Shown here one piece after another: positions 2,761-62,472 of a DNA stretch of 64,000 nucleotides. Each line of letters starts with the position of its first letter. Position 1 is the first letter of the stretch. The position numbers were made by a program, and so were the translations under genes. Under the pieces are notes generated by a model. That model searched no databases. It saw only the letters and a program-made list of their open reading frames with translations, and was not told where the DNA came from. The DNA is from Neckera pumila. Its lineage: Eukaryota > Streptophyta > Bryopsida > Hypnales > Neckeraceae. The stretch spans positions 4,094,501 through 4,158,500 of the forward strand of contig OZ018412.1 of NCBI GenBank assembly GCA_963969595.1, given 5' to 3'.

Positions 2761-2764
2761 TTAA

Positions 2765-3342
2765 CCCCTAAAGTCCCATTGTCCCTACGGGGGACAAAAT
2801 GGATTTTGGGCAGGTTCCTATGAGCTCAATTTTTAATGAAACTTTTTGAAACTTTCCCATAAGATAGAAAAACTTGTTAGCTTTTGGGGAATGTAATTTT
2901 TATTTCAATTGGTGCCCGGGAGCAAAAGTTATGCCCAAATAAGCTCAAAACAAGGGAGAAAGGGCAGCAAAAAAATTTTGCAAAAAATTTAATTTAATTT
3001 TTTTAATTTTTTTTCCTTGTAGATTATATTTTTGCCTATTTGGGAAGCTTTGATTCATTTCATTTGGATTTTTTATGAGAAAGTTATGGACAATCTTGTT
3101 TTTTGGGCAGTTAGAGTATCTTCTTGAAAAAAACTTTTTCTTTCACTTTGAATGCTGATATCTTTCAATCCATACCGTCAAACATCATAAAATTTTTACT
3201 ACATGATTTGTAAAAAGTGTACTACAATATCCTATGGTTAATTTCTAAAAAAAAATATTTTTTCTGATCTTTTAGATGAACGCAACAAAAGTAGCAGTTT
3301 TGAGTGATTTTTGACAGAAAAATGGCCTTGGGACTTTAGGGG
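2765..3342 (+). mobile_element. TTAA-flanked element, internally deleted copy (A)
   Basis: TTAA at 2761-2764 is followed by CCCCTAAAGTCCCA, and the right end in reverse complement begins with the same 14 bases before TTAA at 3343-3346. Just inside the left end is a subterminal palindrome, TTGTCCC-tacg-GGGGACAA. The internal text (a block with aagctttgattcatttcatttgg, then aaagttatggacaatc) matches the copies at 42778 and 61557, but this one is only 578 bp against about 920 bp, so it is an internal deletion derivative. It is non-coding. TTAA duplications with CCC-starting inverted repeats are the known hallmark of piggyBac elements; the assignment is inference. Confidence 0.75.
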
Positions 3343-3469
3343 TTAAGGTGATGTTAAGGACTCAAATCATATGGGCCCCCTTCTTTTGTTATATTATTTT
3401 AGTAAAAAAATGGGATGCTTCTTGTGAATTTGCAATGCTAAAAAACTATTCTGAAGTAAATGAAAGAAA

Positions 3470-4080
3470 AAAAATGGGTCCGCCCCATATGAAAAAAACC
3501 CAACACTCCCTCCTATGAAAAAAAATGGGATCATTTATGAATATACCCCCTACCCAAATTAAAAAAAAAATTGGGGTGAAGTATGAATGACCCCCTACCC
3601 AATTGTGGAAAAAAAATGAGGTGAGGTGTGACCAAAAATCCTACCTAAGTATGAAAAACAAAGGGGGTGAGGTGTAAATAAATCCACCCAAGTATGGGAA
3701 AAAAACAGGGTAGTGTGAATAAATCCCTATCCAATTAGGGAAAAGAAAATGGAGTGAGTCGTGGAAAAAAAATAATATCCAAGTATTAAAAAAAATAGGG
3801 TGAGGTGTAAGTACCCAAGTAGGGAAAGAAATAAAGTGGGGTGAATAAATCCCATATCCAACTTTGGAAAAAAAATGGAGGTCAGTTGTGAAAAAGAAAA
3901 CTAATATCCAAGTATTAAAAAAAATGGGGTGAGGTGTGAGTAACCCCTATCCAAGTACTGAAGAAAATAATGGCATGATTGTGATAAAAATTTGTAACTG
4001 TATATGAGGGAAAATTGGGAAATGGTGTGAATAAACCCACTCCCGAGTCAGTCACCAAAATTGGGTGAGGTATTCCAAAA
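3470..4080. repeat. Degenerate minisatellite, unit about 50-55 bp
   Basis: About ten imperfect repeats of a unit of the form 'aataaatccctacccaagtatggaaaaaaaatggggtgaggtgtg' (wording varies from unit to unit) run head to tail. Each unit has a pyrimidine-rich 'ctatccaagta', a poly-A run and 'ggggtgaggtgtg'. The units are too diverged for a recent expansion. No reading frame persists through the array. 4081-4715 after it holds nothing recognisable. Confidence 0.6.
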
Positions 4081-10024: not shown

Positions 10025-10260
10025 AGTTTAGAGAGGTTCTACTATAAGCCATTTTGACGCTCCTGATAATACTGACACATTCCAACCTCTCCAATACAGT
10101 AGAACCTCCCTAATCCAATACTCTCTAAACCAATAAAGTGTTGTCAAAAAGTATTGATTGTCGATCCCAACTTAACTATATGAACCACCGACAAACATCA
10201 TTCCCTAATATAATAACCTCTCTAATGCAATGTGTCAGACTAGTCTCAACTCTATTCCTT
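10025..10260. repeat. Clustered pogo/Tigger-like end motifs
   Basis: 'gagaggttctactata' (10027-10042) and 'tacagtagaacctccctaa' (10094-10112) are inverted copies of one motif, TA-CAGTAGAACCTC. The sequence between and after them repeats 'caatactctctaaaccaataa'-like blocks. The same 11-mer recurs near 425, 19980, 32450 and 33175. CAG-starting ends next to TA are typical of pogo/Tigger elements. I could not delimit a complete element. Confidence 0.35.
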
Positions 10261-12744
10261 TAGAAAGTTTCTATTGTACCGCTTTTCAAACCACTAGTTG
10301 TTGCATTTTCAACCAATCACTTCTTCTAGCGTCCACTAGTCGCCCCTCCAAGAGTTCCCTCCCTTTTTGCATTTGGCTAGCCCCCTTTTGCTCCTTTCCT
10401 TGCCCATTTTAGTAGCCCAACTAAAACTCAATGAGATTCAAAATGCCCTACTGTCCCTTCTCCCCTATTTTCCAAAGAAATGGCCGTAATTTGTCAATTG
10501 TGAGTTGGTTTTTAATATAAATTATATACATGTGACGCTCTTGAGACATCTAATCTCCAAAATAATTTTCAAAAAATCACACCAAAAACTTGCCCAAACC
10601 TTCAAGAGTCACTGAATGGATTCTTGGAACTTTGCAGGCTAACCTCTAAAGATTCAAGGATAAGGGACAAAACACAAATAATAAATCAAAAACACAATTT
10701 TTATCTTTAGCATTTGAAAACTTCTTTGATTAGTCAAAATTGTGGTTTCATTTGATTTGTGGAAAAAGGCATAAAGGGTTAGTAATGAGAGCATCAATAC
10801 TTTTTCCAAATATTAAATGCTTTGTGCTATTTTCTTTATAATATTTGTTTGACAGTAACACTTTTAGTTTTGAATATAAAAATGAATTAAAAATCCCTAA
10901 CGAGTTAGCACACAAAATATAAATTTTCAAAAAAAATGTTTTTTTCCCTCAAGATGTTGCTCGAAGTCGGGCAACAACCATAAAATGTTTAATTGAGTCT
11001 TCAAGGGTAAAAAGCATACAATTTGCTCACATTGAGCATCGAGGCATACAATGATGGAACTTGCAAAACAAGTTATTTTTTGAAAGATTTTTTTTAAGTG
11101 GTGGTATTTGTAGAAAGGAAATCATTTAGAGTTCAACATATTTTGGAGCATTTTTGGAAGAATTTGGTTGCAGACATCTGTATTGCATTGTATACTATTT
11201 GAAAATTTTAGAGTTTTTTTGTTGATATTGCTACAAAAAACACGAGAAGTAAAGGGTCTTAGAACCTACATATAGTACATATTCCACTTAATGTAACAAA
11301 AAAATGGGTGCAATCTTGTGCTTGCCCCTCTTCATCAAAATCTATGGTCATCGATCTAAAGGGGAAATTTGAACCCTCCATCAAAAAAAAACATTCACAA
11401 AATTGTTTTGGAAAACCTTTGCAGCTTAGAACCTTAGCCGTCAATTTGCAAGGGAAGACTTTGAACACCCTCCCTTGTTGTCAATCTTCAAAAACCAAAA
11501 AAGCATTGATATGAATACTTATATTGATACGATTATCTATATTGGTGCAGAATATTGTATACGGAATACATATGAATATTATATATGGAACATTAATATG
11601 GTACAAATGTATGATGTACAAACACAGGTATTGATATGAGATATGGAATACATGTACAATATCGGAATATACATACGGAATATTCATGACATACAAATAT
11701 GTGTACTATGTTGATATCCCATATCATTTGCAGTCATAACAACCTCTCAAAAAATATAATATGCAGAGGGAGTGGATTATCAATTATTACACAAGCGATT
11801 TTATTTGACGAGTGAACAAGTTTGTCATAATTTGACAATGTGACACAATGTGACAAAAAGATGAATTCACCTCATATTCCTCCAATTCCTTCCTCCCTTC
11901 TCTTGGTGAAAAAACCACAGCCGTTGATCTTCTAACAAAAAAAAATGCCCCCCCTCCATTGTCGTCTATTTTATGATGATATTCAAGGATATTGTACATT
12001 TATCATAGTATGGCATTGATAGAAGCATACTTGTAACATATTCAAAATATGGCATAGAAAAAAAATAAAGTTCCCAATTGGTCAAATTTAAGGGTTTTGT
12101 GTAAATTATGTATTAGTTTAACATAATTACTTTTAAACAATTTTGAATCTATAAGGTCTTATATTTTGGTTTTGCATAAATAGTTGCACCTAAGATTAGA
12201 TGAATTTCAAGAATGACATTTGAATATTATATAAAAAAGTTATAAGAGAATAAAGTTCAATTAGCAATTTTTTTTTTTAAATTTACAAATCTCAATATTC
12301 TTGTATTGAGCACTTTTTACAATGAACATCTATCTATTATCTAAATTTATTTGGATACACTTTAGAAAACACAAAGATATTATGTATGACCTATTTTGTA
12401 GAGTTTCAATGTTGGAAAAATATATTGAAATATTTTATAGAATACTCTTCAATTTTGACGTAGTAAAATTGCCAAAACTCACTCAATCCTTTTCAAATAA
12501 GATGATGTCGTTCTATCTAGTTGCTTTCACATTTGGATTCATGAATTACGTATATTTCATCCATAAATTAAGTATTTATGAATGTAAAGAGCTTCATCTT
12601 TCTAACCAAAATTGCAAATTTCACTTGTTGACTAATGGTATGTTTAGACTATTATATGAATTTGGGGTTTTTAATCCTATATTTAGCTAAATTTTATATT
12701 AGAAGTAATTGTTTATATAGATGTAAATTTAAGTTTTAAGTTTC

Positions 12745-12768: not shown

Positions 12769-12860
<92 letters not shown>

Positions 12861-15316: not shown

Positions 15317-16244
15317 CCCCTAAAGGACCAAAAATCATTTTTTGGCAACATAGCAATTTTGGGCAGTTCACTACAAATGAAAATTTTGTTTTTTTTCTTT
15401 GAAATTTTCAAATAAGATGTTCCCAAGGAGTAGCTTTAAGGCCCAATAACTTTCATAACTTTTGACTACATGGATAAAAAGTTATCGCATGATATGTAAT
15501 TTTCAGTCCTTGGCGAGTAGCCCGGGCAGCTCAAAAAAATTCTTTAAAAATCACTTTTTTGAAAAATTAAAATTTGAAATTGGTTTCATAGGTTTATATA
15601 TACTTGGAAAGCTTTGAATCATTCCATTTGGATTGATGAGTCACAAGTTATGAGGACTTTTAGTTTGAGGGTAGTTATGGAATCTCTACTCTAAAATAAA
15701 CTTTGAAGTCCTTTATCTAACTCAATTTTCAATACTTTTGAAAAAAATAAAAACAGCAGGTGTAGATTGTTTATTACAACATTACAACCGTTGGGATTGG
15801 TATTTTTCAATTCCATCACAAAATTGTTGACAATTTAGTATTTTGAGTCATTCTCTACCTCTTCCTACTTCCTATTTTTTTCCCATATGTTGTACAATGA
15901 TTTGAATTTTTTCGAGCATATATCCAACTTGTCTAGGAAATGAATCCAAAGAGTAACCACCATTTTGGACATTTTTTCATACAAATGTGACCTTGTGAAG
16001 TGCGGCTGCCCAGATTTTTGCAGGACCAAAAAATGGATTTTTTTTTCAATTCAAATGTTAATATCTTGCAATCCACATGGTAGAAAATTCTGATTTTTTT
16101 TCCACATCTTCTTAAACTAGTGTACTATAAGATCTTACAATTACACGTGTTCAAAAATGCTTTTTTTCTAAAACTTGGTACTTGTAATAGAAATGACAGT
16201 TTTGGAGCGATTTTGGTGAAAACATAGTCAAAAACATTTAGGGG
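15317..16244 (+). mobile_element. TTAA-flanked element copy B
   Basis: TTAA (15313-15316) precedes CCCCTAAAGGACC, and the right end reads CATTTAGGGG before TTAA (16245-16248). The length is 928 bp. Internally it shares 'gaaagctttgaatcattccatttgg' and, near its right end, 'atcttgcaatcca', 'gtactataagatcttac' with copies A, D and E. It is more diverged at the left than those copies, and only about eight terminal bases are still inverted. No coding frame is present. Confidence 0.7.
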
Positions 16245-16820: not shown

Positions 16821-17753
16821 TTTCTAAAATTCTTTCATATTTAGAGGCCAAAAACTACATCAAAATATCTGTCCCAAAAGCAAAGCTAAAACCTTCAGCT
16901 AAATTTATTTTTTACCAAATCCAACTACAGGATCCATTAGTGAAGTTGCTCAAATACATTGTTCCATTTTTAAGAGTGAATATCTCCATTGATTGCAAGT
17001 TCAATGTGCCTAAACTTCCAATTGTAGGTTTTTATAGGCCCTTCCAAAAGGTGAAGTTTTGTCTTTCAACACTTTTAGAAAAAAAACATGTATATCCTAT
17101 AACTTGTGCATTTTAGTCAAGAAATTGAAAAATAGGTAGAAAATAGGTAGAAAAAAAATTTAACCAAAAAACTTTCATATTCATCTTTAATGAAATTATT
17201 AAATAGACGATGGTACTGAATGAAAGAAAAATCTAAACCTCTTACAACTTTTTCAATGACAATGAATTGAGAATTGGCTATTCCAATGGTAAAAATGTTG
17301 TAGTAAACAATACATATTTTTGTTTTTGTTTTGAAAATTTTCAAAAATGAATATAGAAGATGACTTTATATGTTTTTTTCTAACTTCACTGCCCTCCAAA
17401 TTAAAATAATACTCGTCACAACTTTCACCTCATTATTTGGAAATGAATGGTTAAAATGTTTGTTAATTAGTACATATCAATCTGTATAATCCCAAAAAAT
17501 AAATTAATCTTTCTTTGGAATATATTTTTTGTTGGCTGATTTGACACTGAAATTGAAAAAGTCCTATATCCTTCTAACTTTTGCAATATTAATTTGAATG
17601 ACATGAAACAAAGCTTTGTACATAGATTAGAATGATTAGCATCCATTTAAAAAATTTATGCAAAAAATTACAAATTTGAAGTCGATAGAGCGTGCCCAAG
17701 TTCTCAGGAAATCCAAAGTAGGTTTTTTAGTCCTCTTGTTAGTCTTCTAGGGG
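16821..17753 (-). mobile_element. TTAA-flanked element copy C1 (reverse orientation)
   Basis: TTAA at 16817-16820 and at 17754-17757 bracket 933 bp. The right end is CTTCTAGGGG, and the left end (TTTCTAAAATTC) is decayed. Read on the minus strand it contains the family core 'caaagctttgtttcatgtcatt'. It is about 80 percent identical by eye to the neighbouring copy C2 across most of its length. A 152-codon plus-strand frame overlapping its left half is not a gene, because the equivalent frame is not kept in C2. Confidence 0.6.
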
Positions 17754-17959
17754 TTAAATTACAAGTCTTCTAGTGTGCAAATGTAAAAAGAATCTCCATC
17801 ATTACTAATCCAATGAACTATTGTAATAGAGAAAATAGCATTTGACAAAATTACTAATCCTAAATGGGATTCTTGCCATTCCAAAGAGAATTTGTTGGTG
17901 GATTCAAGCATTACTTTTGAACTTTTCATCTACAACTTCTAAAGTACGTCCCAAGTAGG

Positions 17960-18846
17960 CCCTAAAGGATCAACATGTTTAGAGGCCCAAAACTGCTTCA
18001 AAATACTTGTCTCTAAAGCAAGGTCAAAATCTTAATCAATATTTATATTTCAACAAATCCAACGATAGGATCTTTTCTTCAACTTATTCAAGTACATTGT
18101 CCCAAAATTTTAGAGTGAATATCCCCAACAATTGCAAGTGTGCCTAAACTTCAAAATGTAGGCTTTTCTAGCCCTTCCAAAAGGTGAAGTTTGTATTTCA
18201 ACAATTTTAGGAAAAAACACATATGTCCTTAAACTTGTGCATTTTAGTCAATATGTTGGAAATTGGGTTGAAAATGTATGTAAAATTTCTAACCAAAAAT
18301 GCTTTTATGTTCTTCTTTTAAAAAATTGTAAGATGGAAGGTAGTATTGAATGAAAGAAAAAACTAATATGCAAATAACTTTTACAAGAAATTGAAATTCT
18401 TAATCCCAATAGTGAGAATGTTCTAGTAAACAATTAGTATCCTTCATTTGTATTTTTATGTAAAAATTTTCAAAATTGAGAGCAAAAGATGACCGTATCT
18501 TTTTTCTACCTTCTTTGTCCACAAAATAAAACTCCTCAAAACTTTTTCCTTCTTATTTGGAATTGAATGGTTCAAATGTTTTAGAGTAGGTACAGTGTAT
18601 ACAATTTCCAAAAAGTAGTTTATTTTTTTTAGAATATCTTTTTTGTTGCCCAGTTTGACATTGAATCAAAATAAACTTCTAACTTTTGCAATATTTATCA
18701 AAATGACATGAAACAAAGCTTTACATGTAGATTATGATGAGTAGCATTCATCCAAAAAAATTATCCAAAAATTCCAACTTATGAAGTTAATAGAAGATGC
18801 CGAAGTTCTCAAAAAGCCCAAAGTGCGCTCTTTAGTCCTTTAGGGG
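17960..18846 (-). mobile_element. TTAA-type element copy C2 (reverse orientation)
   Basis: The right end is CCTTTAGGGG followed by TTAA (18847-18850), and the left end CCCTAAAGGATC at 17960 is its inverted partner. The left TTAA is no longer recognisable (TAGG). The length of 887 bp matches the other near-full copies. Together with C1 it forms a tandem-like pair in the same orientation, which could be two insertions or a duplication of the element. Confidence 0.6.
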
Positions 18847-18850
18847 TTAA

Positions 18851-22557: not shown

Positions 22558-24770
22558 ATGGCGCTCACGACGGTTACGCCCATGAACGAGACGCGGGGTC
22601 ATCACACCATCGACTCCATGTTTGCCTCCAGATATGTGCAGTGCGAGCTTCCCAAGTGAGTTAGCGGAGACGACTGTCTCATCTTCTGAGACAAATCTTA
22701 GCATATAGGCAGTGACCATCTCGTGCTTTCAAAACAAGAAGAAGGGGAAGAATAATGTCGCCGGTTCTAACAATTTGTTTCTTTTGCAGGTTCACTATCC
22801 CGGAGCAAGAAACACCCAAGGATGCTGCATACCAGATCATCAGCGACGAGCTCATGCTAGACGGCAACCCTCGCTTGAACTTGGCCTCGTTCGTGACGAC
22901 ATGGATGGAGCCCGAGTGTGACAAGCTCATCATGTCCGCCCTCAATAAGAACTATATTGACATGGACGAATACCCTATCACCACCGAGCTTCAGGTAATT
23001 TCAATCTCTTGAGAAATGTAATGCCGGTGCTTTGAAAGATAGCGTTGCTCGCATGATGGGGATCTGCACCCTACGGTAGACGCTAATGAGGACCCGTGAT
23101 TTGTGCAGGACCGCTGCGTGAACATGATCGCCCGCCTGTTCAATGCACCAATTGACGCTGGTGAACAAGCCGTCGGAGCTGGCACAGTGGGATCATCCGA
23201 GGCCATCATGCTCGCTGGTCTTGCCTTCAAGAGGAAATGGCAGAATGAGCGGAAAGCGGCGGGGAAGCCTTGGGACAAGCCCAACCTGGTCACAGGCGCA
23301 AATGTCCAGGTACGTCAACGAGGCTCTAGAGAAGTGCATGGACCAATAACCTAGGTGAACTAAGAACGCTCCAAATCTGAGACAGATCCGGTCCTTGTAG
23401 GTCTGCTGGGAAAAATTCGGACGATATTTCGAAGTAGAGCTCCGGGAGGTGAAGCTCACAGAAGACTACTACGTCATAAATCCGGAAAAAGCAGTCGAGC
23501 TCTGTGACGAGAACACCATTTGCGTGTGTGCGATCCTCGGGTCGACATACAATGGCGAATTCGAAGATGTGCAGGCGCTGAACGATCTGCTGGAGAAAAA
23601 GAACGCAGAGAAAGGGTACTTTAGTCTCTCCACTCAATCTCCTCCGCAGACCTCCATTTCCTGCAGACACACTCTGTCCTTACTACTTCCCCAAAAATCA
23701 GGGTTACGAGGAATCGGAATCCTCTGTTTTACTTGATTTCATAATTGCGTTTCTGATTTCGTTTGTTAAAGTCTGTTTTCATAGACTCTATTCTTCAGCT
23801 GTAAGCACACAAAAAGATTGCAAAACGTTAAAACACGGTCAAACTATGACAGAATTAGAGATCACAATAAGGAATACTGCTTCTGCAACTTCAGAATTGA
23901 GTGAATCCGTGCACTGACCAACTGAAGTGAAAATCAACAATCAGGTGGACCATTCCGATTCATGTGGACGCCGCCAGCGGCGGCTTCATAGCGCCGTTCA
24001 TCTACCCCGACCTCGTCTGGGACTTCCGCCTGCCCCTCGTGAAGAGCATCAACGTTTCCGGCCACAAGTACGGCCTGGTGTACGCCGGCATCGGCTGGGT
24101 CGTGTGGCGCAACAAGGAGGATCTCCCTGAGGAGCTCATCTTCCACGTGAACTACCTCGGCGCCGACCAGCCAACTTTCACTCTCAACTTCTCCAAAGGC
24201 GCGAGCCAAGTGATCGCGCAGTACTACCAGCTCATCCGTCTAGGGTTCGTCGGATACAAGAACATCATGGCCAACTGCGCCATGAACGCCAAGATCCTCA
24301 CGCAAGCCATCGAGAGCCTCGGCCGCTTCAAAATTTTGTCGAAGGAAATCGGCGTCCCCGTGGTGGCGTTCTCTCTGTTGGACAACCGCGACCATGACGA
24401 GTACGAGATCAGCGACGGACTGCGAAGGTATGGATGGACGGTGCCTGCTTACACTATGGCGCCCGATGCGCAGCACGTCACGCTCCTGCGAGTGGTGGTG
24501 CGCGAGGATTTCAGCAGATCCCTTGCTGATCGCCTGGTGACGGACATCAAGCGCGTGCTGGCGTACATGGACGCCAGGCCGAGCAAGCTCATTCAGGTCG
24601 TGACGGATGCAGTGCAACAGGAGAATCAAGAGCTGCACTCGCCGCGCCCGAAATCGGCTGCTGAAGTGAAGAAAATGAAAGCGTTCAACCTCACCTTGAA
24701 CCCCAAGAAGATAGACTCGTTCGGACCTCGATCCAGCCCGCTTGGCAGCCCTCGGGCTGGCATTTGTTAA
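22558..24770 (+). CDS. GAD: Glutamate decarboxylase, five exons, 514 aa
   Basis: This is a PLP-dependent cytosolic enzyme that converts L-glutamate and H+ to GABA and CO2. Exons: 22558-22655, 22790-22994, 23109-23309, 23401-23615 and 23945-24770. All introns are GT-AG and every junction keeps frame. The product starts [22 protein letters not shown]-fold motifs are in place: HVDAASGG at residues 246-253 and the Schiff-base lysine K281 in [11 protein letters not shown]. The length fits plant GADs (about 500 aa). The C-terminal tail, where angiosperm GADs bind Ca2+/calmodulin through a Trp and a lysine cluster, is Trp-free here (basic KKMKAF and NPKK segments, ending AGIC), so calmodulin control may be weak or different. 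The fifth exon holds over half the protein. It converges with AUG5 and the U2 gene downstream. Confidence 0.96.
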
Positions 24771-25571: not shown

Positions 25572-25767
25572 TTAGGGCTGCGCCAGCCAAGGAAATAGTG
25601 CAATACCAAGGCGACGCGCGCGGGTCCGGGTAGCAAGCTACCTGATGGACCCGCACCCGCTGAAAAATTAGATTAATATCATGGGGATCGATGACCCCCG
25701 TATCAGATATTAAACTGATAAGAACAGATACTACACTTGATCTTAGCCAAAAGGCCGAGAAAGGTAT
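25572..25767 (-). ncRNA. U2: U2 spliceosomal snRNA
   Basis: The transcript starts ATACCTTTCTCGGCCTTTTG at 25767 on the minus strand, the canonical U2 5' end. The branch-point recognition sequence GTAGTA lies within the conserved 'caagtgtagtatctg', followed by the stem-loop IIa region (gggggtcatcgatcccc), an Sm-like site (aatttttcag) and 3' stem-loops (ggtccatcaggtagcttgctacccggacc). A length near 196 nt fits plant U2; the 3' end is placed by length and could shift by a few bases. It pairs with the intron branch site in the major spliceosome. Confidence 0.95.
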
Positions 25768-29400: not shown

Positions 29401-30716
29401 GCAGCGATTCTATATGTAGAGTACAAATCAGACGCACCTAAGCCGTTCAGCATCAGCTCGAACGTCAATCTTCTCAGTTTCAGAGTCGACCGTGGCCACA
29501 ACACGCTTGGTGTAGTCAGCCATGGCTAGTAATAATAGAGGTGGATTTTTCAACAGATTCACTGCAATATCTTTCACTTCTTCCGGAATGCCGTCCCCGT
29601 CCACTTCAAAGCTCAACTTGGAAGCTTCCAGCTGCCCGTCGGACTGGCTGCTTGAACCATCGTATGCTGGAAAAGAGGTCCTAATTCTATCCAGTAAAGC
29701 AGACGAGAGAACTTCACACGCTTGACGAATGTTTCGGTCTTGAGGAGTCTCCCGTAACACTTGTTTTTCATCAGACACAGTGGCTGATGTTGAGGAATGT
29801 GCATCCGCATTGCCTTGCAAACGTTCTTGGACGAGGTCGGAGGAAACCGACTTCCCTCTCTGTGCATCTCTCGCATGCTCAACATGAACATGAAGTCGCT
29901 TCCAGTATTCCATAAATATGCGAGTAGACTGTTCTGACCGTTGGTCATACGATTCGAGCAATACCTGCTTGTGTCTACAACCCTTTGCAGTAAGAATCAC
30001 CCACTAGAGAGCCCGACATCAAGCTAGCAAAATCATCAAAAAATCCCAGACAATCAAGTTTTTCACATTTCAATAATTCAGAAGGTATGTTCATATGAAT
30101 GCGAATCATCGTCTCACCTCGAATTATTTCTCTCTTCAGAAACGCGCTGGCGTTCAATTTCTTCCTTCGAAGCATCGAGCATGCGACTTTTCAAGTCTTT
30201 CCCCATGCGCTGCACAGACAGTCTCAATTTCTCCACCTCCTGCTCCGCTGCGTCCCTCTCACGCAACGCTTTCTCAATGGAGTCTTCACTATCTGCCACC
30301 TTCTCTCGTTCTCTCTCCACACCTTCCCTGGACTTCGGCCTGTCCCCCGTGCCAGGCCTCGATCGGCTCTTATTATACCTCCTCACACTCTTTCCCACAT
30401 TCGATCGCTCACTCTTGCCCGCCTCCACCTCCTTCTCCTTCTCCTTCTCCTCCCCGGCGTCCTCCCTCAATTCACGTTTCCCACCGCGCGACGGACTCCC
30501 ATGCACATGAATATTACGCCGAATCTTTTCCACCGTCTGGTCCGACTTCACCCTGTCCAACAAAAACTTCCACACCAACATCATATTCCCCCTGCAAATC
30601 CTCCGCAACGCCTCCGCCGACGGGGACGCCCTGTATCCCATCTCCTGCTGCAGCCATTCGATAATCGCTTCAGCAGTTGGCGCACCGCCACTTCCACCAC
30701 CGCTGCCGCCCTGCAT
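26448..30716 (-). CDS. AUG5: Augmin subunit 5 (HAUS-like), ten exons, 811 aa
   Basis: This is a subunit of the augmin complex, which recruits gamma-tubulin to existing microtubules for branching nucleation in spindle and phragmoplast. Exons (5' to 3'): 30716-30118, 29974-29438, 29174-29039, 28836-28687, 28565-28356, 28112-27927, 27796-27637, 27328-27136, 27041-26909 and 26579-26448. All are in frame with GT-AG introns. The N-terminal domain ([15 protein letters not shown], then [21 protein letters not shown]) matches plant AUG5, followed by a charged segment and long coiled coils. The C-terminus carries the conserved [20 protein letters not shown] (from residue 770). Arabidopsis AUG5 is of similar length. 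The start at 30716 (MQGGSGG) is preferred by family N-termini; an in-frame ATG at 30824 would add 36 residues. Confidence 0.93.
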
Positions 30717-33700
30717 CGCTTCGAAACCTCCCCCCTCAAATCCCTTCAATCCATCTCCAAATCTCCATCGCCGCTTCCACACCACCAACGCCGCCCAAAC
30801 GCCAAGAACCGGATCCCGGGCCACGCCCTAACCGGCAACACAATGCTGTCAATCCCATCGACCTGAAATGTTTTGAACGACGTTCTCGAATCATTCAAAC
30901 GCATTTCAGTGGCAACGATAACTACGTTGGGCTCGCCCATAGCCCGACCACGACGTCGAGCGCCATGCGCTTGGGCACCCGCCCTGGCGAACGAAGCTGG
31001 AGGCGGGAAAGAAGGCGTTTGTAACTTTTGGATGGAATACTGAAGGACGAACGACGGACGGACGGAGCTTCACATCCGTCCGTCTGTGGTTCCTGCCTGG
31101 CTCCCTTCAGTCGTTTTCGCTTGGACAGTTCGGTGGAAGTGTTTGTACTAAGGAGTATGATATCTGTGAGGAATCTGTAGGTGGGACGAAAGTGTACCAA
31201 CCGACGTACCAAGGGAGGAAAAGATTGTCCCTGGGTTGAAATATGAAAACAAGGTACCCTACGCCAGGGGTCAGACTCTTTAAAATAATAATTCAAAAAT
31301 AATTAAATATGGCATCTAATGGAATTTTCAGATATTATAATGTGGCATAATTGAATATTGTAGAAAGTAATTTTAATCCGCAAAACCAACCACAAAGTCG
31401 AAGCCGTGAGTACCTATAAAGCCGCGAGTATAAGTAATGCCTTCAGTATTGGTAAAGCTATGAGTACTACTAAAGGTCATGAAATATTTTGAACCTTGTA
31501 AAACAGACTTCTGGAAATTCTAAATCAAATTGACAAATGGAAACATAAACCAAAAAAGAAATGATTTCGTATGGGCCCTAACGAAATTTGACCCCAATAT
31601 ACAGGTATCTGCTCTAAAAGCAATTATGCTCTAAAAGATCACTAATACAAAGGTGCATGTTGTTTCTTCCAATGTACCAATAGTGTACATTTTAGGAGGG
31701 GGAGCTTTCAATTTCAAAAACTTGTAACAAATTTCACAAAGGTCCAAAAATATGAAACAACTTAGATTAGATGCCAATTCCATTTTTCTTCATACAAAAA
31801 TTTATTGAAAACTGTTTCAAGGAATTTAGCTTCTCCCCAAATTCAATCAGCTCTTAAAAGGTTACTTTGAAATAAACTACTATGTACCTTGATTTATTAT
31901 TGTGAACAAGGGCATGAAGAAGTTCTCAAGATTTGCACCATTTAAGTGTCAATTAACTAGAACATGAATAATGGGTAACTAGAATGAAGGAGAAGTGCAC
32001 CTTGGGGGCTCAATAAATACACTCAAATATTTTGATCATCTAAAAACTAAATTTTAGAGTGATGGGGGTGAATGATATTGAATGATATTGACCATTCTCT
32101 GCAAGAAGAAGTAATATTATTCATTTTGGTTCAAGAAATTTTTATAGCCAAACAATAGAACAATTCATATTGAAATTTCAAAAGGAAAAAATAATCATGC
32201 AATATTTTTTCATGAAAAACACTTTTAAAATAAAAATAAGTGCCTAAATATAAAGGGATTCTTTTCATAGCACAAGAAGAGAGAAACCTACCTAGATTTT
32301 CATTAAATCTTTTAATCTAATATGAAGAAAGACTATGATCCAACTTCCCTTGTTGAACAAATTCAAGGAGGGTAGGAGCAATGTTTGTATTTCTTGGTAA
32401 ACATATCTATTGAAGGGATATTTGAAGGAGGAGAATTGTACCAATTACAGTAAAACCTCTTTTATGTATCGGGACTATGCACATTAGAAGGAAATGAGGG
32501 GTTTTGCAACTAAACAATGCAAATGGTTTTGAGACTACACTATGCAACTGGTTTTGAGTTGCATAAGACATTTGTACTTGGTTTGCGACTGGTGATAATT
32601 TGGAGACTTTGTGAGAGTAGTCACTTTTCTATTGATTTCTACCCAAATCAACAAATTCCTCTCCAAATCAACAGAAAAGTGAATCAAATCTATGCAATCA
32701 AATCAACAGAAAAGCTGAATTTTGTAGTTATGTAGGAAATCATTAAGAAACAACTAGTGTATGACTAGAATGCGACTAGAAAGCGACTAGTAAACAACTT
32801 TGGTCATTTTATAGTTGCAATCTTTTTCTAGTTGTTTTCTAGTTGTTTTTTGCAACTACAGACTGACTTCTTTGCAACTAAAACAATATATCAATGCTGT
32901 AAAACAATAACATAAAACAATTAAGTTAGATTTGGTACTAATAGAGAGGATTGTAGTCGCAGGATAGTTGTATAGGACACTAGTTGCATAGTAGCCGGTT
33001 GTGCCGGACATGTTTTTCTTCTAGTGGCACGGAGAGAGGTGCAATAATGACCAATGGCTAACGTGGCTTCTAACTACGAGGTCTCCAACTACTTTTCAGA
33101 AATAAATGTTTCAAAGTATGAACTCTCCTACTGCATATTATGCACTAAAAGAGTATACAATAAGAGAGGTTCTATCGTAGCATGGTTGGAATATAAATAT
33201 TCCAAAATATATATAAATCTATACCTTCTGTACCTTAAGTTAGGGTGTTTATTTGTTTTCTTTGTTATAGTGAGATCTCCTAGATCATGTACCCCGTGGT
33301 CAGATTCTTAGTAGCATCGGAAAGCTCTTTGTGAGGAGGGATGGACAGGCTTTGTTTTGTGGCATTCCAACTCACAATTTTCAAGAGTTTATTATGAATT
33401 TAAAATTTAGAAAATTACTTTTACTTTTATTTTGAATGTGGAAACAAAATAAGGCACACTAGTATATACTTTATATGAAATATTCTTTTACATAATTTTG
33501 AAGCCCTTCTTTTATTTGAAATTGCCAAGGAAAATTAGCTTTTATATTTGAGTTCATCTAAGTTTCTAAGATCCATCTAAATGAATTTCACTAAATCTCA
33601 TGAGTCTTTAATGCTCATTCTTTTAATATCTAAGCATTATAAGCCCCACTTGCAAATGAGCTCAACAATAAGTCAAAAGTTAATCGTGTAGTAGTAATTG

Positions 33701-36655: not shown

Positions 36656-36855
36656 NNNNNNNNNNNNNNNNNNNNNNNNNNNNNNNNNNNNNNNNNNNNN
36701 NNNNNNNNNNNNNNNNNNNNNNNNNNNNNNNNNNNNNNNNNNNNNNNNNNNNNNNNNNNNNNNNNNNNNNNNNNNNNNNNNNNNNNNNNNNNNNNNNNNN
36801 NNNNNNNNNNNNNNNNNNNNNNNNNNNNNNNNNNNNNNNNNNNNNNNNNNNNNNN
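36656..36855. other. Assembly gap, 200 N
   Basis: Exactly 200 N characters, suggesting a gap of unknown true size. The bases on both sides are AT-rich spacer. Confidence 1.
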
Positions 36856-42480: not shown

Positions 42481-43858
42481 TTAAGGTAAAAAAAAGTCAA
42501 AAGCCGGAGCTACATAGAGCGTTAGACAACACAAATATTCATTATTAGAATATGAAGTAGATGGACATTGCGTAATGCAATCATCAAGACTTTTCAGCAA
42601 AAAACCTAGTGATTGATATATATGTAGGACATGTTTTGATACCATTGTAGGCAAAAATATAATACAAGGCAATAGACCCCAAGATTTTGCATGCCATTTG
42701 GCTTTGTCATATTTTGTCTCTAATTCTTTAAGCATTGGCTGAGGGCCTTCTACATATCGCTCAAGTTCTGCCATTAACCCCTAAAGGACCATTGTTTTTT
42801 CAGGGGACAAATGGGATTTCGGGCAGGTACCTACGGGTTGAATTTTTGTCGTGATTTTTTGAAACTTTTTTTGAAGATAGAAAAACTGATAAGCTTCGTG
42901 AGAGTATAATTATTTTTCAATTGGTGCCCGGGAACAAAAGTTATGCCCAAATAAGCTCAAAACAGGGGAGAGAGGGCACCAAAAAATTTTGCAAAATATT
43001 TAATTTAATTTTTTTCCTTTTTTTTCCTTTTAGATTATATTTTTTCCTATTTGGGAAGCTTTGATTCATTTCATTTGGATTTTTTATGAGAAAGTTATGG
43101 ACAATCTTGTTTTTCGGGCAATTAGAGCATCTTCTTGAAAAAAATAACTTGTAGGATTCATTTTGGAATGCAATTTTTGCAATTTTTCAAAAAAAAAGTT
43201 CCACATGGTTTATTTTTCTTGCTAGAACAATCTCACCATTAAAGTTAGTGCATTATAATTCCATCTAAAAGATATTAATATTTAAGATTTTCCTTCTATC
43301 TTGTACTATCTTCTACTTAACAATTTTTTCAAGAATGAAAATTAAGTTTTTTTGGAATTTCTTTTTTTTCCTAGACTCTCAACTCAATTCTCCACTATAA
43401 AGATTTAAAGCTCAAAACTCTGTAGTGCAAAAAATTTAAGTTAAAAATGTTCAAAGTCAAAAAATCTAGTCCCACAATGTATTGAAAATCTTGTTTTTTT
43501 CACTTTAAACGTAGATATCTTGCAATCTATGCGGTCAAAAATTTTGAAATTTTTTCCGCACATTTTCATACTAGTTAGGTATAAGATCTTACGGTTGGAT
43601 GTGCAAAAAAAACATTTTTCATATTTTTTTACTCTTTGCTCTAAAAATGGCACTTTTGAGATTTTTTTGGCAGAAAAAAGGCCTTCGTCCTTTAAGGGTT
43701 AAAGTCAATGGTCTGCTATTGTTGTTGTCATCACTTGTACCTCCGTAGGAATATAAATTAGGTATTGGTGAGTCCACAAAGTCACTCATGTTTGACATCC
43801 AAGACGATTTGGTATTAGTGCTCAATAATCCAAATTCTTTGGAAGAAAGGGCATTCAT
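42481..43858 (-). pseudogene. Unknown ORF split by TTAA element D
   Basis: Minus-strand frames on either side of the element are one ORF. From 43858 it reads through '...SRPLTL', where TTAA (43699-43702) marks the insertion, and it resumes at 42777 with 'MAELERYVEGPQPMLKELE' to a stop at 42481. Deleting one TTAA plus the 921-bp element gives an uninterrupted frame across the junction (codons cca ttg act tta atg gca gaa). The frame is also open for at least 23 codons upstream of 43858. The protein is not recognised. It has a hydrophobic C-terminal third (LPCIIFLPTMV, LCCLTLYVAPAF). With the element present the gene is disrupted. Confidence 0.6.
42778..43698 (+). mobile_element. TTAA-flanked element copy D, inserted in an ORF
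   Basis: TTAA (42774-42777), CCCCTAAAGGACC at the left, GGTCC-like 'cgtcctttaaggg' at the right and TTAA (43699-43702) define 921 bp. The inverted ends agree at 11 of 12 positions. It shares nearly all internal blocks with copy E (61557) in the same order, including 'gggcaggtacctacgg', 'tttgattcatttcatttggat', 'cttgtaggattcattt' and 'gtataag-tc-tacggtt'. It has no coding frame. The restored ORF on removal is the best evidence in the window that TTAA is the target duplication. Confidence 0.85.
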
Positions 43859-45577: not shown

Positions 45578-46508
45578 TTGGCCGTACTAGCACTAGGTGA
45601 ATGTTGTGATTGTGAAGTGGGTGGCTATAATTTTTGGAGGAGACAATGGAGCTGGACAACTTTTTGTGCATTGTTGTTCAGTGCTCTATATTTGGATTCT
45701 GTCAAGATTGAGAATTATGAGTTGGCATTTATTTTGCCAAGTAATGGGAATGCCATTATCACCGCAATCCCATTGTTTGTTCAAGAATTGCGTCCTACAG
45801 GTGGTGGCAGAAATATTTTATGTCAAAAAGCTTGTGATCGCCAAAACTACAAATGCAATTGTGGATGTATCCACGTTGGTAGCTTCTATAGAACCTCTTC
45901 TTGTCAACCTTCAAGGGGTTTGAGGTGTCCAAAGCAGAAGACGGAACTACAATATGAGGTTTCTGAAAGTGGTCTCTTCTTTTCCATCGGTTTCAAAGTG
46001 ATTTGTCCACTATACAACAAGGATGGTGACCTACTAGCGCCAAGAGGCATCAAGTTGGACATCAATACTAGTAGAAAACGTAGGAATTTTGATAGAATTC
46101 TATTGATTTGGTCGCGTTGTTCCGGTCACTGTTTTGTTGATTTCAACAGAAATTTGTTAATTTTAACAAATTTCTATTGAAATCAATAAAACAGTGACCG
46201 GGACAACGTGACCAAATCAATAGAATTCTGTCAAAATTCCTGCGTTTTCTACTAGTGATAGGAATCACCGGTCAAAGATGCGATGTGACATCAATGAATG
46301 GCTAGATCCAAACAAGGATCCCGATTACTATATGAAGGACCTCTTCAAGCAAAAGCCTGGGGATCAAGTACTGGAGGCCTTGCCAATGTTCAATACATCT
46401 CAAAAGAAGCAGAAGAAGCCTTGGGCCATCAACCTCCAAAGATTGATTAGCACAACAAGTTATTTAGCCACCAGCCTTGAATTACACTTAGAATGGATCA
46501 TAAATTGA
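45578..46508 (+). pseudogene. Unknown ORF interrupted by CACTA-like MITE
   Basis: The plus-strand frame from 45578 runs to the MITE at 46068. The frame after it (from 46261, reading RNHRSKMRCDINEWLDPNKD) connects exactly when the element and one ATA copy are removed (aac/aat-agg junction giving LDINRNHRS). The combined frame is about 246 codons, Cys-rich in the middle (CQKACDRQNYKCNCGCIHVG). No family is recognised. Another frame also looks partly coding, so the true frame upstream of 45900 is uncertain. Confidence 0.4.
46068..46257. mobile_element. CACTA-like foldback MITE, TSD ATA
   Basis: This 190-bp palindrome has arms of about 92 bases meeting at 'aatttgttaattttaacaaatt'. The right end in reverse complement is CACTAGTAGAAAACG and the left end is CTAGTAGAAAACG, which lacks the first CA. 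The 3-bp duplication ATA flanks it (46065-46067, 46258-46260). The ends relate it to the 86-bp element at 38086. Confidence 0.75.
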
Positions 46509-47328: not shown

Positions 47329-47545
47329 CACTATAAGAAACCCGTGTTTTTAGTGACGAGGCCTGATTTTTCAAGACGGATTTTAGTGGACATCCAATGC
47401 AACAAAACCATGTTTTTTGTCAACAAAAACGTCCAATATAACATCAATGTTGACATAAAAACATAGGTTTGTTGCATTGGACGTCCACTAAAATTTGTCA
47501 AGAAAAATCAAGGCTCGTCATCTAAAACGCAGGTTTCTTATAGTG
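47329..47545. mobile_element. CACTA-like foldback MITE, TSD GTA
   Basis: This 217-bp element starts CACTATAAGAAACC and ends GGTTTCTTATAGTG, with a 3-bp duplication GTA on each side (47326-47328, 47546-47548). The arms pair over most of their length around 'aacgtccaatataacatcaatgtt'. It belongs to the same family as 1538-1772. It is non-coding; its foldback transcript could feed small-RNA pathways (inference). Confidence 0.85.
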
Positions 47546-47924: not shown

Positions 47925-48270
47925 GAATTTTATACCTCATTTAGGTATAGTGGAATAGTTTTTTTTCAAAAAACTTCAAACTAGATTAATGTGGAAAATC
48001 AAGCTAACTTTCATCTCCAAAAATCCGTTTGTGATTTTGAGCCTCTAAAAAAGAGTAATGGACAAAATTCATAGAGGATGTTTGAAAATGTCAAAGAACA
48101 TGTCTCTTTTAATCCCTCTTTGATTTTAAGTTTGTCCATAACTTTTTCTTGGAGGCTCAAAATCACAAACGGATTTTTGGAGATGAAAGTCATCACAATT
48201 TTTTATATTTAATTAGTTAAAAGTTTCTTGAAAAGAGTTACTTTACTATGCCAAAATGAAGTTTGAAATT
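47925..48270. repeat. Large inverted repeat (foldback), about 345 bp
   Basis: The inner arms are nearly perfect: 'actttcatctccaaaaatccgtttgtgattttgag' at about 48008-48042 pairs with 48155-48189. The outer arms (47925-48000 and 48195-48270) pair imperfectly. The whole stretch would fold into one long hairpin centred near 48097. Terminal duplications were not resolved. It may be a MITE or a small-RNA precursor. Confidence 0.6.
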
Positions 48271-50342: not shown

Positions 50343-53300
50343 TCACACTTTCTCAGATTGATGTGACGACACTACTAACCTTCCTGGGACATTTGTGGAC
50401 GGTTCCCGAAAGCTCCTCGCGTTGCGCAACGATGTTGAGCGCCAAGCTTGACCAGGATCCGAGTCCAACATTTCGGCGGCAGGCTTGGGCTCGCTGTGAC
50501 GAGCGATCTTCAACGCCCCGACGTCGTCTTGTTGCCAAAACACTTCCACCATCATGCCATGAGGAGCAACGCCGGACACCGAATCTGGAATTCTCACTTC
50601 CTGAGCTCCAACGGGCACCTGTGCAAGCAGCAACAAACCGTTTAGACATATATTCTTGTGAAAGAAAGATGTACAGAACAAGGTCTCAAGGTCTGAAGTC
50701 GACAAAAGCTTGATACCTTCAAGGATTTCCCGTTGACAGTTAAAGTCTCAAATCGGCCTTCCGCAGCAGCATTTTCCAAATCGGCCTGCCTGGATATGGT
50801 CAGAAAGACTTCCTCCAAGGTCGTCAGACCTAATTGCAGGTCGGATATCCCGAGCTCGGCCTTTCTAGCTTCCAACAGTTTGAAAAAACCCTGCGAAAAA
50901 TAGTCTCGAGATAATCAGAAACTCCTCAACAAACTCAAAGCACAGGTAAGGAACGATTCCTCGTTACTCAAATACTCAGAACAATTGAGCAATTTGTCAA
51001 ACGAGAGAAAAGAATGAAATTACCGGCAGTTGCGGTTCCTTCTCTCGCGGTACGATGAATGTGATATACGCCTTGTTCTCATCACTCGGAACGAGGCCAA
51101 GTTGCTGCACAGATAACAAATCGCTCAGCCTCAAAAGCAACAAATACAATCAACAGCAATGATATGTCACTCTACAACGGACGTAATCCTGCACTATTAT
51201 TTAAGAAAGCACATCATACCAATATCACAACTCGTGTTGGTTTTAGGTCATCTGCCAATCAAACTTTAAAACCTAGTGACTTTTGCATATGGTATCCAAA
51301 TAAAGCATTCTTGCAGGCGTTCAAATCCTGTCGGAATTGCTAACAAGAACATTACAAAATTCATCCATTTTTGTTACAGTAAAATGCCCTTACAACATCA
51401 CAACTCGTGTTGGTTTTAGATCATCTGCCAATCAACATTTAAACCCTCGTAACTTCTGCATATGGTCTCTTCTTGGAGGCGTCGAAATCCTCTCGAAAAT
51501 GCATATTTCATAATCGAACCATTCTCACAATAGTAAAATGCTCAAACTTCCAAATGAACTTCCACATGCACGAAGCGTATTCACATACCTCTTGGAAGAA
51601 ATCCTTCACTCCAGCTCTTCGGACCTCTTCCCGAGCGGCTTCGCCAGGTTGCTGCAAGCCATCTTCGCGGCGCACACTCACGTTCACAAGGTACCCAGCC
51701 CCGAACTTGGTCTTCAAGTGGATGGGCGTGCCAATGCAACGCAGCTTCCCCCTGGCCATGATCGCCACACGGTCACCTAAGATGTCCGCTTCTTCCATGG
51801 AATGCGTCGTCAACACAATGGCACGTCCCTTCTTGGACGCCTCAATGATGTCCCACACATGTCGCCGCGTCACGGGATCCATGCCCGTTGTCTGATAAGC
51901 CAGAACGCACACATTAGTCCTCTGCTATTGAGTAGCCAACGTTTTGCATCACTGCGGGCAACTGGAAAACAGGAAAACTGGAAAACTGCAACTGCAAAAC
52001 TTCTACAACTCGAAGCTCAACTTTGACTGGCCATAACTTTCTCATCAGTGGTCCAAATCCATTGATTCAAATACAATAAGTCTTGATTCTTCCCCACTTT
52101 ATAAATCCAATTTCTTGTGGAATTCAGTGACTTATTGCAACTTCAGGAATAAACATGTCGAAATCACAAGTGCTCAAGGCGAGGTCTGACTGAAATATTA
52201 TAGCCAAGGGTGGTTTAGGTGTTTAGGTGCTTTTATTGCTCATTGCACTTGATGCAAAGGTTCGAGGTTTCGTTATTTTATCGAATCATCTGAAGATATG
52301 TATACCCATAGACATGTGGCCTCATGTAGTAAGGAATATGAAATGTATAAAGGCCAAGCGACTAAAACTACAAATAAACACTTACAGGCTCGTCCAGGTA
52401 GACAATCTTGGGGTCGCCAATGAGAGCAATGGCAACACTGAGTCGCCTCTTCATGCCACCGCTGTAGCTTCCTGCCCTCACATTTGCAGCTTCTGTCAAC
52501 TTCACCTGATCCAGGAGCTGATTGCTTCCCTGTTGCCACAAAAACAAGACATTTAGCAATTTCCAAGGTTATGTTCCATACAAGTAAGAGCAGCAGCTCC
52601 GCTATTCAATTGCATCTCCTGCAGGCATTGTAAATATCAATCAGGAAGATGACGAGGTTTTTCGTATGCTTCACACTTACTTCTTTGATTTCTGAAGATG
52701 GCAAGCCTTTGATGGACCCAAATAGGTACAGATGTTCGCGGGCTGTTAATGCTTCCCACAGCACATCAAACTGTTTGGAACAGAGCCGTTGTCAGTCAGT
52801 GCAGGCTGTGATTAAAATAGCCATGGGGGAAAACAGGCTTCAAGTATTTACAACGTGATTTTCAGTCAAATTTGACTGTTTCAAGAATTATTAGACAACA
52901 TCACAGGGAGATTGATCATGAGAAGACCTCACCATGATCACCTACTTGGAAGGAGCTTATGTCACTATCTGAACAATTTGGTTCAAAACGTTCACAAAAA
53001 TATTTAAATAATAAATAGGGAAGTATCTCCAATGATACTTATTGTCGTACTTATTTGTCATTGGTCAATGCACATCTCTCTATGATTGACATCCAAAAAT
53101 TACCAAAAAGAGTTGTTTTTACCAAAGACCCTGATTGATAAACTCAAAAAGAGGGTTTCCAAATGGGTTTATGTACCTGAGGGCAAACTCCCATGTTCTT
53201 GCGTATGTTGGCTATACCAGAAGTGCTTCTGATAGACTCGCTATACACCATAGCTGCCACACGTAAAAAGAATGGCAATGAAAGACCGATTGAAAGTTGA

Positions 53301-58211: not shown

Positions 58212-61200
58212 TACGACTCACTTCCTCTTCCACTAAACAAATTCAATCCTCACGACAGAAAATCCACTTCCCAAAATAACAAAAAATACAAGCAAATCCC
58301 CAACAGCAAAAAAATCCCAACCCACAATCGCCACTCCCCCACTTCCCAAATCTGCTTCGAATTCAAATCCGGGAGTTCAAATCCACGCCACACTAAACTC
58401 ACAATCCGAGGCTGCCAAGTCCGAAACCAGAGACTGAAAAACCTCTACCGACTTCACTTGAAAGTTAACCACCCCTCTTACGAGTCCCATCCCAGGTGAC
58501 AAAATGAAAACGACCAGTAAAATTGAATAGCGCAGAGTGACGTAACAAGTCTGCTCACCACACCGTGCGCCGCAAGGTGGGAGCTTTGGCGCTGTGCTCT
58601 GCTCTAATAGGGAGGGAGGCAGGGATCATGGATATTAGGACTGACTGACTCCCGGGGAACAGTGTTCGCCGTGCCAGTCGGAGATCTGCATGGAAGGGGC
58701 GGGGAATTTGAGGTACGGAATTGCGACGCGCAAGAATTTGGCTTTGCTTGAGGGATTTGTTTGTTTTAGTGTTTGGGATTTGTTTTGTTTTGTTTTTTTC
58801 TTACACAGGAATAGAATTTTTTCTTGAGGTTAACCTGCAAAGACGCTGGTCACCAAGTCATCCTTTTTAATACAGTGTCAGCACTTAAGAAAAATCGTTG
58901 GAAGTCAAACTACTGTGCAAGACCTCTCTTTTTGCACAAAATTGCACTTCTCTATCTTACATGAAAGGATTCTCTGTCATGCATCCGACTCTTTTCGTGT
59001 CGGCAGCAGCGTTTCATTTGCTTGACAGGAGGGGCGGGGCACTGGCAGGGTGCAAGTAGGGGCGAGCACCTTCGAGCCGGTGTCGGGAGAAGGTGTTCGG
59101 AGGAAGCCGGTCGTTTTCTGCGGAGCTTCCGTCCGGCAACGCGAGGTCCGTCTTCGGATGGAACCGTTGTCGCCGTTCGTTCGAGGGAAAGGTTTCATCG
59201 GGTTTCGACAGAGATTCCACGACTGAAAGGGAAAACCTTATTCATTCGTCGGTCTCGTGCTCGGCTGCAAGTCCCTGCGAGTCCCTAGACTGACTTCAGT
59301 GCTCACTGAACACTCTTGGAAATAGCTTACGGTAGATCAGTCCAATTTCATTCACTGCCCAATTCTGTCACTCTATTTTTGGCCCCAATTTCGATCAGAA
59401 AAACATCCAAATTTGTTCCATTTTTTAACAAAATCATTGCATTAATTGTCAAAAAGGGATAACATGTCAATCCTTTATTGGTGAGAACATAAATGTCATT
59501 AAATGTACAAAAAAGGTGGTTATGGGTTTTTATGGGACGTTTACAACTCCACTCTTTGGGTGGTTTCAATTTGTAATTTCAAGGCAGATCACTTCTTATA
59601 AATTCATAAAAAATTCAATTTTAATCAAAAAATTATAATTCCACTTGAGTTTGATTTGTGAAACAAGCGCACACCTTTGAAAAAATATGTGGCCTACTTG
59701 GAATTGGCTCCAAAATATTCAAATTGCAAATCAGGGTGGTAATAGTTTTTTCTACTTTAGATATATCCATTGTTGGTTTATCATTCTTTTCTTCACTACT
59801 ATAGCCTAAAGTCACTTTTGGCCCAAAAAATTTAGTAATTTGATATTTTGAAACAAGAATGGTTCTAAAAATTAGCAAGCTAGTTTGCCAAATTGAAGGA
59901 AAATTAAATAGAAGAAAGTCAAAATGCTGGAAAAGATACCGAAATAGCTTGATTCCAAGGATGTGTCTATCAACTAATGCAAAATCTAAATTCATTTCTT
60001 TCATTTTATAGCAAAACATGAACATTATGAAAAGTGATGAATTCATTGAAAGCTATAACTATTGCTTTCCTATACAATGAAAAAAACTATTTAACTTTCA
60101 AGATTATTTGAGGGATTGCCAAAAGTTAAAAAAACTAATTTTGCCAAATTTGAGGGATTGCCAAATAGCTTATTCTTCGATGCATGTTTTCAAAATTCAA
60201 AGACATAGTAATAGTCATGAATAAGCATTTCATCAAAAGTTGATTTTCATAGTTCCAGAAAAGACCAAAAAATTTGATTTGAATGAATCAAATCAAAAAT
60301 CAATGCATTTTGTTTTCACATTTCAAAAAAAAGTCGCATTTGTTTTTTTACACATTTAAAATCCACACAAAAAAAAATTATAAATTATGAAAAAGCCGTG
60401 TAAGAAATCATTCCAATATATTTCAATTAAAATCGTATTTTTACAAAAAAATCTTACTGTAAACTGTGGTCTTCAGAATTTTCACATTAAATACGGAGTA
60501 TTATTCTAGATTCCAAGGTGCATCACAGTTTCCGAGATCCTGTTAAGAGATTACCGGAATGCCTCTGCATGCCTCGGGAGTAGGTCATCCCAAGTTCAAT
60601 TCGAATCTTCGATTGTAGAAACTGTGTCCCACAGCAAGTTCTGGGAGGCAGTCACAAGCAAGGTTGACGGAGGCACAACGTTGCATTCGTGGAATTTGAT
60701 TTCCACGAAATTTCGCAAATACCAACCTCCAAGACGACTGAGTGAGAGCAGAAGAATATTTCAACGAACTTCTGAGGGTGGAATAGTATAGGGCAATGCC
60801 CGCAGAGGAGGGCATTGCCCGACGTAAATCACGATTGAAAGAGGAGATAAAATTGGATGAAACGATGAGTCGGATGAAAAATCCGTAATCCCCAATTACA
60901 CGGTTTTGTCCGCGTAATCGGGGATTACGGCATAGAAGCTTCCCGCCGATTGAATGGGACTTGAACCAGGAGTGGTTTACGTGGCCAAGGAGAACTGACC
61001 CTTGTATTGCCCCAAGTTTTATCCTTGCAGAAAACACTGAAATTTTTTGTTTGTCAAATTTGATCAAATTTGCAATTTCTGAATTCATATTTGCAATCAG
61101 AGGCCCCGAATTAGTCAGGATACGTGAAGAAATACAAAATTAGAGCGGCACAAAATAAGGGCCAGTTTTTACATTTACCTTTTGACGGGACAATAGAGGG

Positions 61201-61556
61201 ATCAGTCCTCCCTAGGAGTTCTCCAAATTACTGGATCCTGAAATGCTAGGACTGATGTATTCGCCCAATCTTTCTTATGCAGGACATTAGATTTGTCTCA
61301 GGAAGTGGGACTAGCAGGGTAAATTGGGGGTTCTTAGGGATAAAAGTATGAAGAAGGCCCCTATTTTTGAGTTGTGGTTTAGGGATACTTTCTAGCACCC
61401 AAGTTAATTTGGGACCTCTTATTGCAAATATGAATTCAAAAATTGCAAATTTTTTAATGTGCAAAAAATAAAAAATTCTTGGATTTTCCCTAGGATAAAT
61501 CCAGCTTGTTGGTTCCAATTTGTAGGATGGATTTAACATCCCCCTTTTCTTATTAA
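58212..61556. other. ABCA2 upstream region and spacer; no gene supported
   Basis: 58212-58700 is presumably the ABCA2 leader and promoter; TGACGTAA at 58538-58545 is a bZIP-type (TGACG) core. 58890-58995 is the second copy of a dispersed repeat found at 18930-19060. A GC-rich block at 59000-59290 and a 167-codon minus-strand frame at 60585-61088 have no recognisable product. Within the latter are two perfect short hairpins: gggcaatgcc/ggcattgccc (60791-60820) and ccgtaatcccc/ggggattacgg (about 60884-60931). Confidence 0.4.
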
Positions 61557-62468
61557 CCCCTAAAAGCCCGTTGTCCCTTTGGGGGACAAATGCGTTTTCG
61601 GGCAGGTACCTACGGGCTGAAATTTTCTCTGATTTTTTGAAACTATTTTGGAAGGTAGAAAAACTGATTAGCTTTATGGGAATATAATCTTTTTCACAAT
61701 CAGTGCCCGGGAACAAAAGTTATGACCAAATAAGTTCAAAATAGGGGACAGCGGGCAACAAAAAAAATTTGGACTTTTTCTCTTTTTTTTTTGGTATTTT
61801 TTTCTTATAGATTATATTTTTGTCTATCTAAAAAGCTTTGATTCATTTCATTTGGATTTGTTATGAGAAAGTTATGGACATTCTTGTTTTTCGGGTAGTT
61901 AGAGCATCTTTTTTTTTTAAAATAACTTGTAGGATTCATTTCGGAATGCAATTTTTCAAATTTTTCAAGTTTTTTTTGCATGGTTAAGTTTACTTGCTAG
62001 AAAAATCTGACCATTGGAACTAGTGCATTTTAATTCCATCTAAAATATATGAATATTTTAGATTTTCCTTCTATCTTGTACCTACTTCTACTTAATAATT
62101 TTTTCAATAATGAAAATTAAGTTTTTTTGACTTTTTTTTTGGGTAGATTGTCAACTCAATTCTCCACTATAATCATTTAAAGCTCAAAAATTTGTGGTGT
62201 AAAAATATTAAGTTAAAAATGTTCAAAGTCAAAAAAACCAGTTCCACAATGTGCTGAAAAATTTGTTTTTTTTACTTTAAACGTAGATATCTTGCAATCT
62301 GTGCGTCAAAAATTCTGAAATTTTTTCCACGAATTCTCATACTAGTTAGGTATAAGGTCCTACGGTTAGATGTGCAAGAAAAACGTTTTTAATTTTTTTT
62401 CACTCTTTGCTAAAAAAATGGCAATTTTGGGTGTTTTTTGGCAAAAAAAGGCCTTGGGCCTTTTGGGG
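61557..62468 (+). mobile_element. TTAA-flanked element copy E
   Basis: TTAA (61553-61556), CCCCTAAAAGCCCG at the left, 'gggccttttgggg' at the right and TTAA (62469-62472) bound 912 bp. The subterminal palindrome TTGTCCC-tttg-GGGGACAA is as in copy A. The internal order of conserved blocks is the same as in copy D, including the right-end 'gatatcttgcaatctgtgcg' and 'actagttaggtataag'. It is non-coding. Confidence 0.8.
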
Positions 62469-62472
62469 TTAA

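Follow-up and report, generated by a model that had tools for sequence, protein, structure and literature searches.

The piggyBac transposons are well studied in animals and little described in land plants. Their hallmarks are TTAA and inverted ends of 12–19 bp with CC[C/T]T, as set out in the relevant part of one study (PMC2872659), and the sections of animal surveys that deal with termini give ends that read CCC or CCCT, together with some piggyBac copies that have other duplications (PMC10813416, PMC12732532). For plants, one source states in passing that piggyBac occurs in ‘plants’, with no detail in the passage concerned (PMC10140906), and the repeat table of the fern Ceratopteris has a ‘PiggyBac’ line with 1,230 copies and 122,417 bp (PMC6890710). 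A moss genome paper that has the word applies it to the ‘piggybacking’ of expression (PMC10619864), and among the literature titles listed, from a collection with few subscription journals, there was none on piggyBac or TTAA MITEs in mosses. The locus presented here is a window of 64 kb of moss DNA (the whole stretch analysed, 64,000 nucleotides) that holds six related elements of 578–933 bp. These are read, with a probability of about three in four, as old non-autonomous copies of a cut-and-paste DNA transposon, moved by an enzyme most likely of the piggyBac type.

Six related elements, their ends and their flanks

The elements, called E1 to E6 in the order of the window, have inverted ends of one pattern, close to CCCCTAAAGGAC, and a combined length of 5,159 bp, or 8.1% of the window. 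E1 (2765..3342, + strand, 578 bp) has TTAA at 2761-2764 and 3343-3346, and TTAA also stands on both sides of E2 (15317..16244, +, 928 bp), E3 (16821..17753, −, i.e. inverted, 933 bp), E5 (42778..43698, +, 921 bp) and E6 (61557..62468, +, 912 bp). E4 (17959..18846, −, inverted, 888 bp), the neighbour of E3 and in the same orientation, has TTAA at 18847-18850 and GTAG on its other side, at 17955-17958. An earlier note on this DNA had listed six such copies, and these were found again on re-reading the window, with the coordinates and ends that it gave; only the start of the fourth copy, put there at 17960, is more likely 17959, since positions 17955-17959 read GTAGG where the other copies have TTAAC, a difference of three substitutions. 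TTAA on both sides in five copies and on one side in the sixth, as the same note described, amounts to 11 of the 12 element ends, E4 being the copy with one; the background is 374 window positions out of 64,000 at which TTAA begins. A profile built from the six copies and run over the window with default settings returned the same six places, E1 as two pieces, and no seventh place up to E = 10. The GC content of the elements is 0.28–0.31 and that of their 500-bp flanks 0.27–0.38, and the GC-richer block at 20-32 kb holds none of the six.

With the termini set as CCCC/GGGG, duplication lengths from 1 to 12 bp were compared, and only 4 bp fits, in five of the six copies; with the termini moved by one base, to ACCCC/GGGGT, those five copies accommodate a duplication of 2 bp (TA). 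CCC starts 11 of the 12 ends (E4 being tabulated from 17960) and the fourth base is C in 10 of the 12, which makes the start CCCCT rather than CCCT. Positions 5-8 are mostly TAAA; the E4 end, counted from 17959, begins GCCCT. Left and right ends, compared by hand over 14 bases, match at 14 positions in E1, 12 in E5, 11 in E6 and 11 in E4 (from 17959), the poorest being E2 with 9 and E3 with 7. E3 has one degraded end (TTTCTAAAATTC), and its opposite end shows an insertion of 12 bp when aligned. Long diverged terminal repeats were considered as well: a single nhmmer match (E 0.0069) suggested that E2 has at its left end a mirror image of the subfamily-A right end, and the candidate was dropped on a summed score of 830 for all 36 left–right pairs, versus a shuffle mean of 821 (sd 23). 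Between copies, the 400-bp flanks show no relationship beyond the physical overlap of neighbours, so that these are separate insertions. Within the window no empty sites were found, joined flanks matching their own loci only.

Interiors, subfamilies and age

E3 and E4 have interiors that match the remaining copies when read from the opposite strand, and all six copies align end to end once these two are turned round. It was such an alignment that the earlier note had proposed as a check; its description of internal blocks in the same order holds after inversion of the copies at 16821 and 17960 but not for the copies as they lie. The interior homology was measured in 7 of the 11 cross-subfamily pairs after trimming 40 bases per side, TTAA included. 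In the same orientation, scores are 106–188, with a shuffle maximum of 54 (100 shuffles each); in the reverse orientation, they are 32–42, a level that between 3 and 82 of 100 shuffles attain.

Three subfamilies can be distinguished, namely A (E1, E5 and E6), B (E2, its sole member in the window) and C (E3 and E4, 76% identity). Judged by divergence, the family is old and layered rather than the product of a single recent burst, because identity is 71–85% within subfamily A and 48–56% between subfamilies (aligned columns of the six-way alignment). Pairwise alignments of half-elements, with free gap placement and without a shuffled control, give 63–70% between subfamilies. The major amplification that had been suggested previously is not retained, as there are three old subfamilies, the best pair in the whole set is 84.6% identical and the search was confined to 64 kb. 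The similar length of five of the six copies, also remarked on before, is now 888–933 bp with alignment throughout, and because of this shared layout the compact form of ~0.9 kb probably predates the subfamily split.

The best-conserved interior block, at 43047..43112 (+) in E5 (AAGCTTTGATTCATTTCATTTGGAT...GAAAGTTATGG), is present in all six copies; one guess is that it is a putative transposase binding site. Because E3 and E4 each carry a weaker second copy of this block (17575-17624, −, 17.2 bits, and 18680-18729, −, 12.0 bits, respectively), the element interior may contain repeated motifs. Internal inverted similarity was looked for in single copies, where the score is reached by none of 60 shuffles for E6 and by 2 of 60 for E5; as a general trait it was rejected, being equalled by 7, 19, 35 and 59 of 60 shuffles in E1, E3, E2 and E4, respectively. 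Folding of the single strand covered two of the six elements, and with E5 beating 20 of 20 shuffles (z −2.9) and E2 18 of 20 (z −1.2), the signal is too weak for a foldback structure to be kept.

E1 differs from E5 by an internal gap of ~340 bp. In the left part, E1 shares 87% identity with E5 and 79% with E6 (E5 versus E6 there, 83%); in the right part, the values are 70% for E5 and 77% for E6 (E5 versus E6 there, 87%). Since the two parts differ in their identity to E5 and E6, E1 may be a mosaic, as far as one copy can indicate, and interrupted gap repair would fit the gap. Directly to the right of E1, at 3440-3980, lie A-rich loose repeats with units of the AAAAAA-TGGGGTGAGGTGT type.

Coding capacity and other features of the window

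None of the copies encodes a protein, in agreement with the earlier note: the longest stop-free stretch per element is 63–97 aa, and a coding relic inside the elements was looked for and rejected. Over the window, the six-frame search with a profile of 120 piggyBac-domain proteins had a best E of 1.5, tblastn gave no piggyBac-like transposase at 0.01, and a Pfam scan of 30 ORFs, taken from 166 stop-free stretches that are 75 aa or longer, gave no transposase domain. When the moth piggyBac protein was used as query, the organisms named among the best 120 of 872 matches were insects; closer relatives fill these best 120, and for this reason the search is silent on mosses.

Element-derived sequence was also sought with filters off, at E < 0.01. 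The six-copy profile then gave a single extra match, a 48-bp fragment at 52025-52072. The separate search for the best-conserved interior block met that block again at 52025-52071 (−), in none of the elements, with 25.5 bits and E 6e-7 (10 shuffled element sets reached at most 7.7 bits), and no TTAA/CCCC ends were noted around it. With the subfamily-A profile, the matches outside the six elements were this fragment and 10450-10590 (−) only, the latter corresponding to profile positions 68-208 (E 0.0029) and being perhaps an older element fragment. In the vicinity of the 52025 fragment, 50346-50747 (−) has a weak ABC-transporter-A match of 25.3 bits, below the cut-off of 27.

The window further contains an intact glutamate decarboxylase gene with five exons (22558-24770, +), of which four splice variants are open, the 514-aa one being used for comparison. 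A search scored 8,000 candidates and the best 120 were compared; among these, identity is 88% for Ceratodon purpureus, 88% for Physcomitrium patens, 81% for Sphagnum jensenii and 75% for Selaginella, a JGI protein is 95% identical, and longer records from Ambrosia (62%) and Brassica (74%) stand high by score with low identity. Ranked by identity, the best named relatives are the three mosses; the host is accordingly a moss, probably of a genus other than Ceratodon, Physcomitrium and Sphagnum. The C-terminal tail (24642-24770, +) is without tryptophan, a residue that is part of the calmodulin-binding tail of the flowering-plant enzyme. Other features are a full-length gene for U2 spliceosomal RNA (U2 snRNA; 25573-25767, −, 176 bits), an exon of augmin subunit 5 (30114-30827, −), a near-perfect inverted repeat at 46067-46256 (94-nt arms, 94% complementary, 2 nt apart), more inverted repeats at 1538-1772, 47329-47545 and 47963-48234, and an assembly gap of 200 N at 36656-36855.

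Candidate transposases and known systems

In the proposed mechanism, the transposase would come from another place in the genome, recognise the CCCCTAAAGG(A)CC ends, excise the element and insert it at TTAA, leaving TTAA on either side. The elements would thus have moved in trans, the enzyme would have been of piggyBac type, and the TTAA duplication itself is deduced from the flanks. Repeated mobilisation across a long time is suggested by ends that stayed alike while interiors of different subfamilies came to share only about half of their bases. What stands of the earlier piggyBac reading is a TTAA-flanked, non-coding transposon family with inverted repeats, the superfamily being assigned on TTAA and the CCC termini only. 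Membership of the piggyBac superfamily is therefore called probable, because neither a transposase nor an empty site was found in the 64 kb searched. Against it also stand the start in CCCCT, where animal elements more commonly have CCCT/CCCTT, a left–right end match that covers few bases and is weak in E3 (7 of 14) and E2 (9 of 14), and the TA duplication that shifted termini allow in the same five copies.

Another TTAA-targeting transposase, such as Sola3 or one undescribed in plants, could have moved the elements, their piggyBac-like ends being convergent. Sola3 makes TTAA duplications, Sola elements occur in plants and the search of the window gave no piggyBac transposase, but Sola3 ends start with G. 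Since C-rich ends together with TTAA are a mark published for piggyBac in the part of the study concerned (PMC2872659), this origin is considered unlikely. The fit of TA in five of the six copies, once the termini move by one base, would suit Tc1/mariner-like (Stowaway-like) MITEs with a TA duplication, ends of the form ACCCC..GGGGT and a T-TA-A target preference. MITEs of this kind are common in plants; however, the base outside TA is T on five of six left sides and A on all six right sides, for which there is no mechanistic reason, and this makes them a quite improbable source.

The options that we consider hardly credible are a PIF/Harbinger-type element with a 3-bp duplication, a local duplication of a larger segment and a Kolobok-type element. 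Harbinger-type MITEs are likewise common in plants and their 3-bp duplication is TAA/TTA, but none of the six copies agrees with such a duplication, whichever way the termini are set. Local duplication would agree with the adjacent, equally oriented E3 and E4, but not with flanks that are unrelated between copies over 400 bp, overlap aside. As for Kolobok, it also duplicates TTAA but has termini that are 5′-RR according to the passage available (PMC9587614), whereas 5′-CC is found at 11 of the 12 ends here, so that this superfamily does not fit.

The preferred assignment thus remains a non-autonomous family of piggyBac type, and pending the enzyme it can be regarded as a well-documented MITE-like family of probable superfamily: a new, probable piggyBac-type family in an unusual host. 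If piggyBac is correct, the host range described so far would come to include a moss with six copies within 64 kb, and it would have to be asked whether the family came by vertical descent or by horizontal transfer. A native transposase of this type from moss could also find use in plants as a scarless tool. A broader idea, offered tentatively, is that mosses carry or have long carried a TTAA-specific lineage of their own with an ancient compact non-coding form of 0.9 kb, which would have split into subfamilies with interiors now about half identical, its ends and TTAA targeting being kept throughout. This might be a true piggyBac lineage that thrived in early-diverging land plants or the work of an unrecognised plant transposase that converged on these ends and this target.

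Compared with known systems, the moss elements resemble the piggyBac superfamily (DDE_Tnp_1_7, PF13843) and its TTAA MITEs in having TTAA on both sides, inverted ends that start with CCC and short non-coding copies; they differ in the moss host, in their ends (CCCCTAAAGG), in that the window yielded no transposase, and in an old conserved interior within ~0.9 kb. The ‘PiggyBac’ repeats of Ceratopteris are likewise an assignment in a land plant, in the form of an automated table line whose accompanying passage is without ends, target sites or a transposase (PMC6890710). The coral CMITEs, as far as the relevant part of their description goes, share with the moss elements TTAA duplications, CCC ends (CCCCT in one family) and an interior conserved between families, but they are ~100 bp long, versus ~900 bp in the moss, and live in an animal host with piggyBac-like transposons in the same genomes (PMC2872659).
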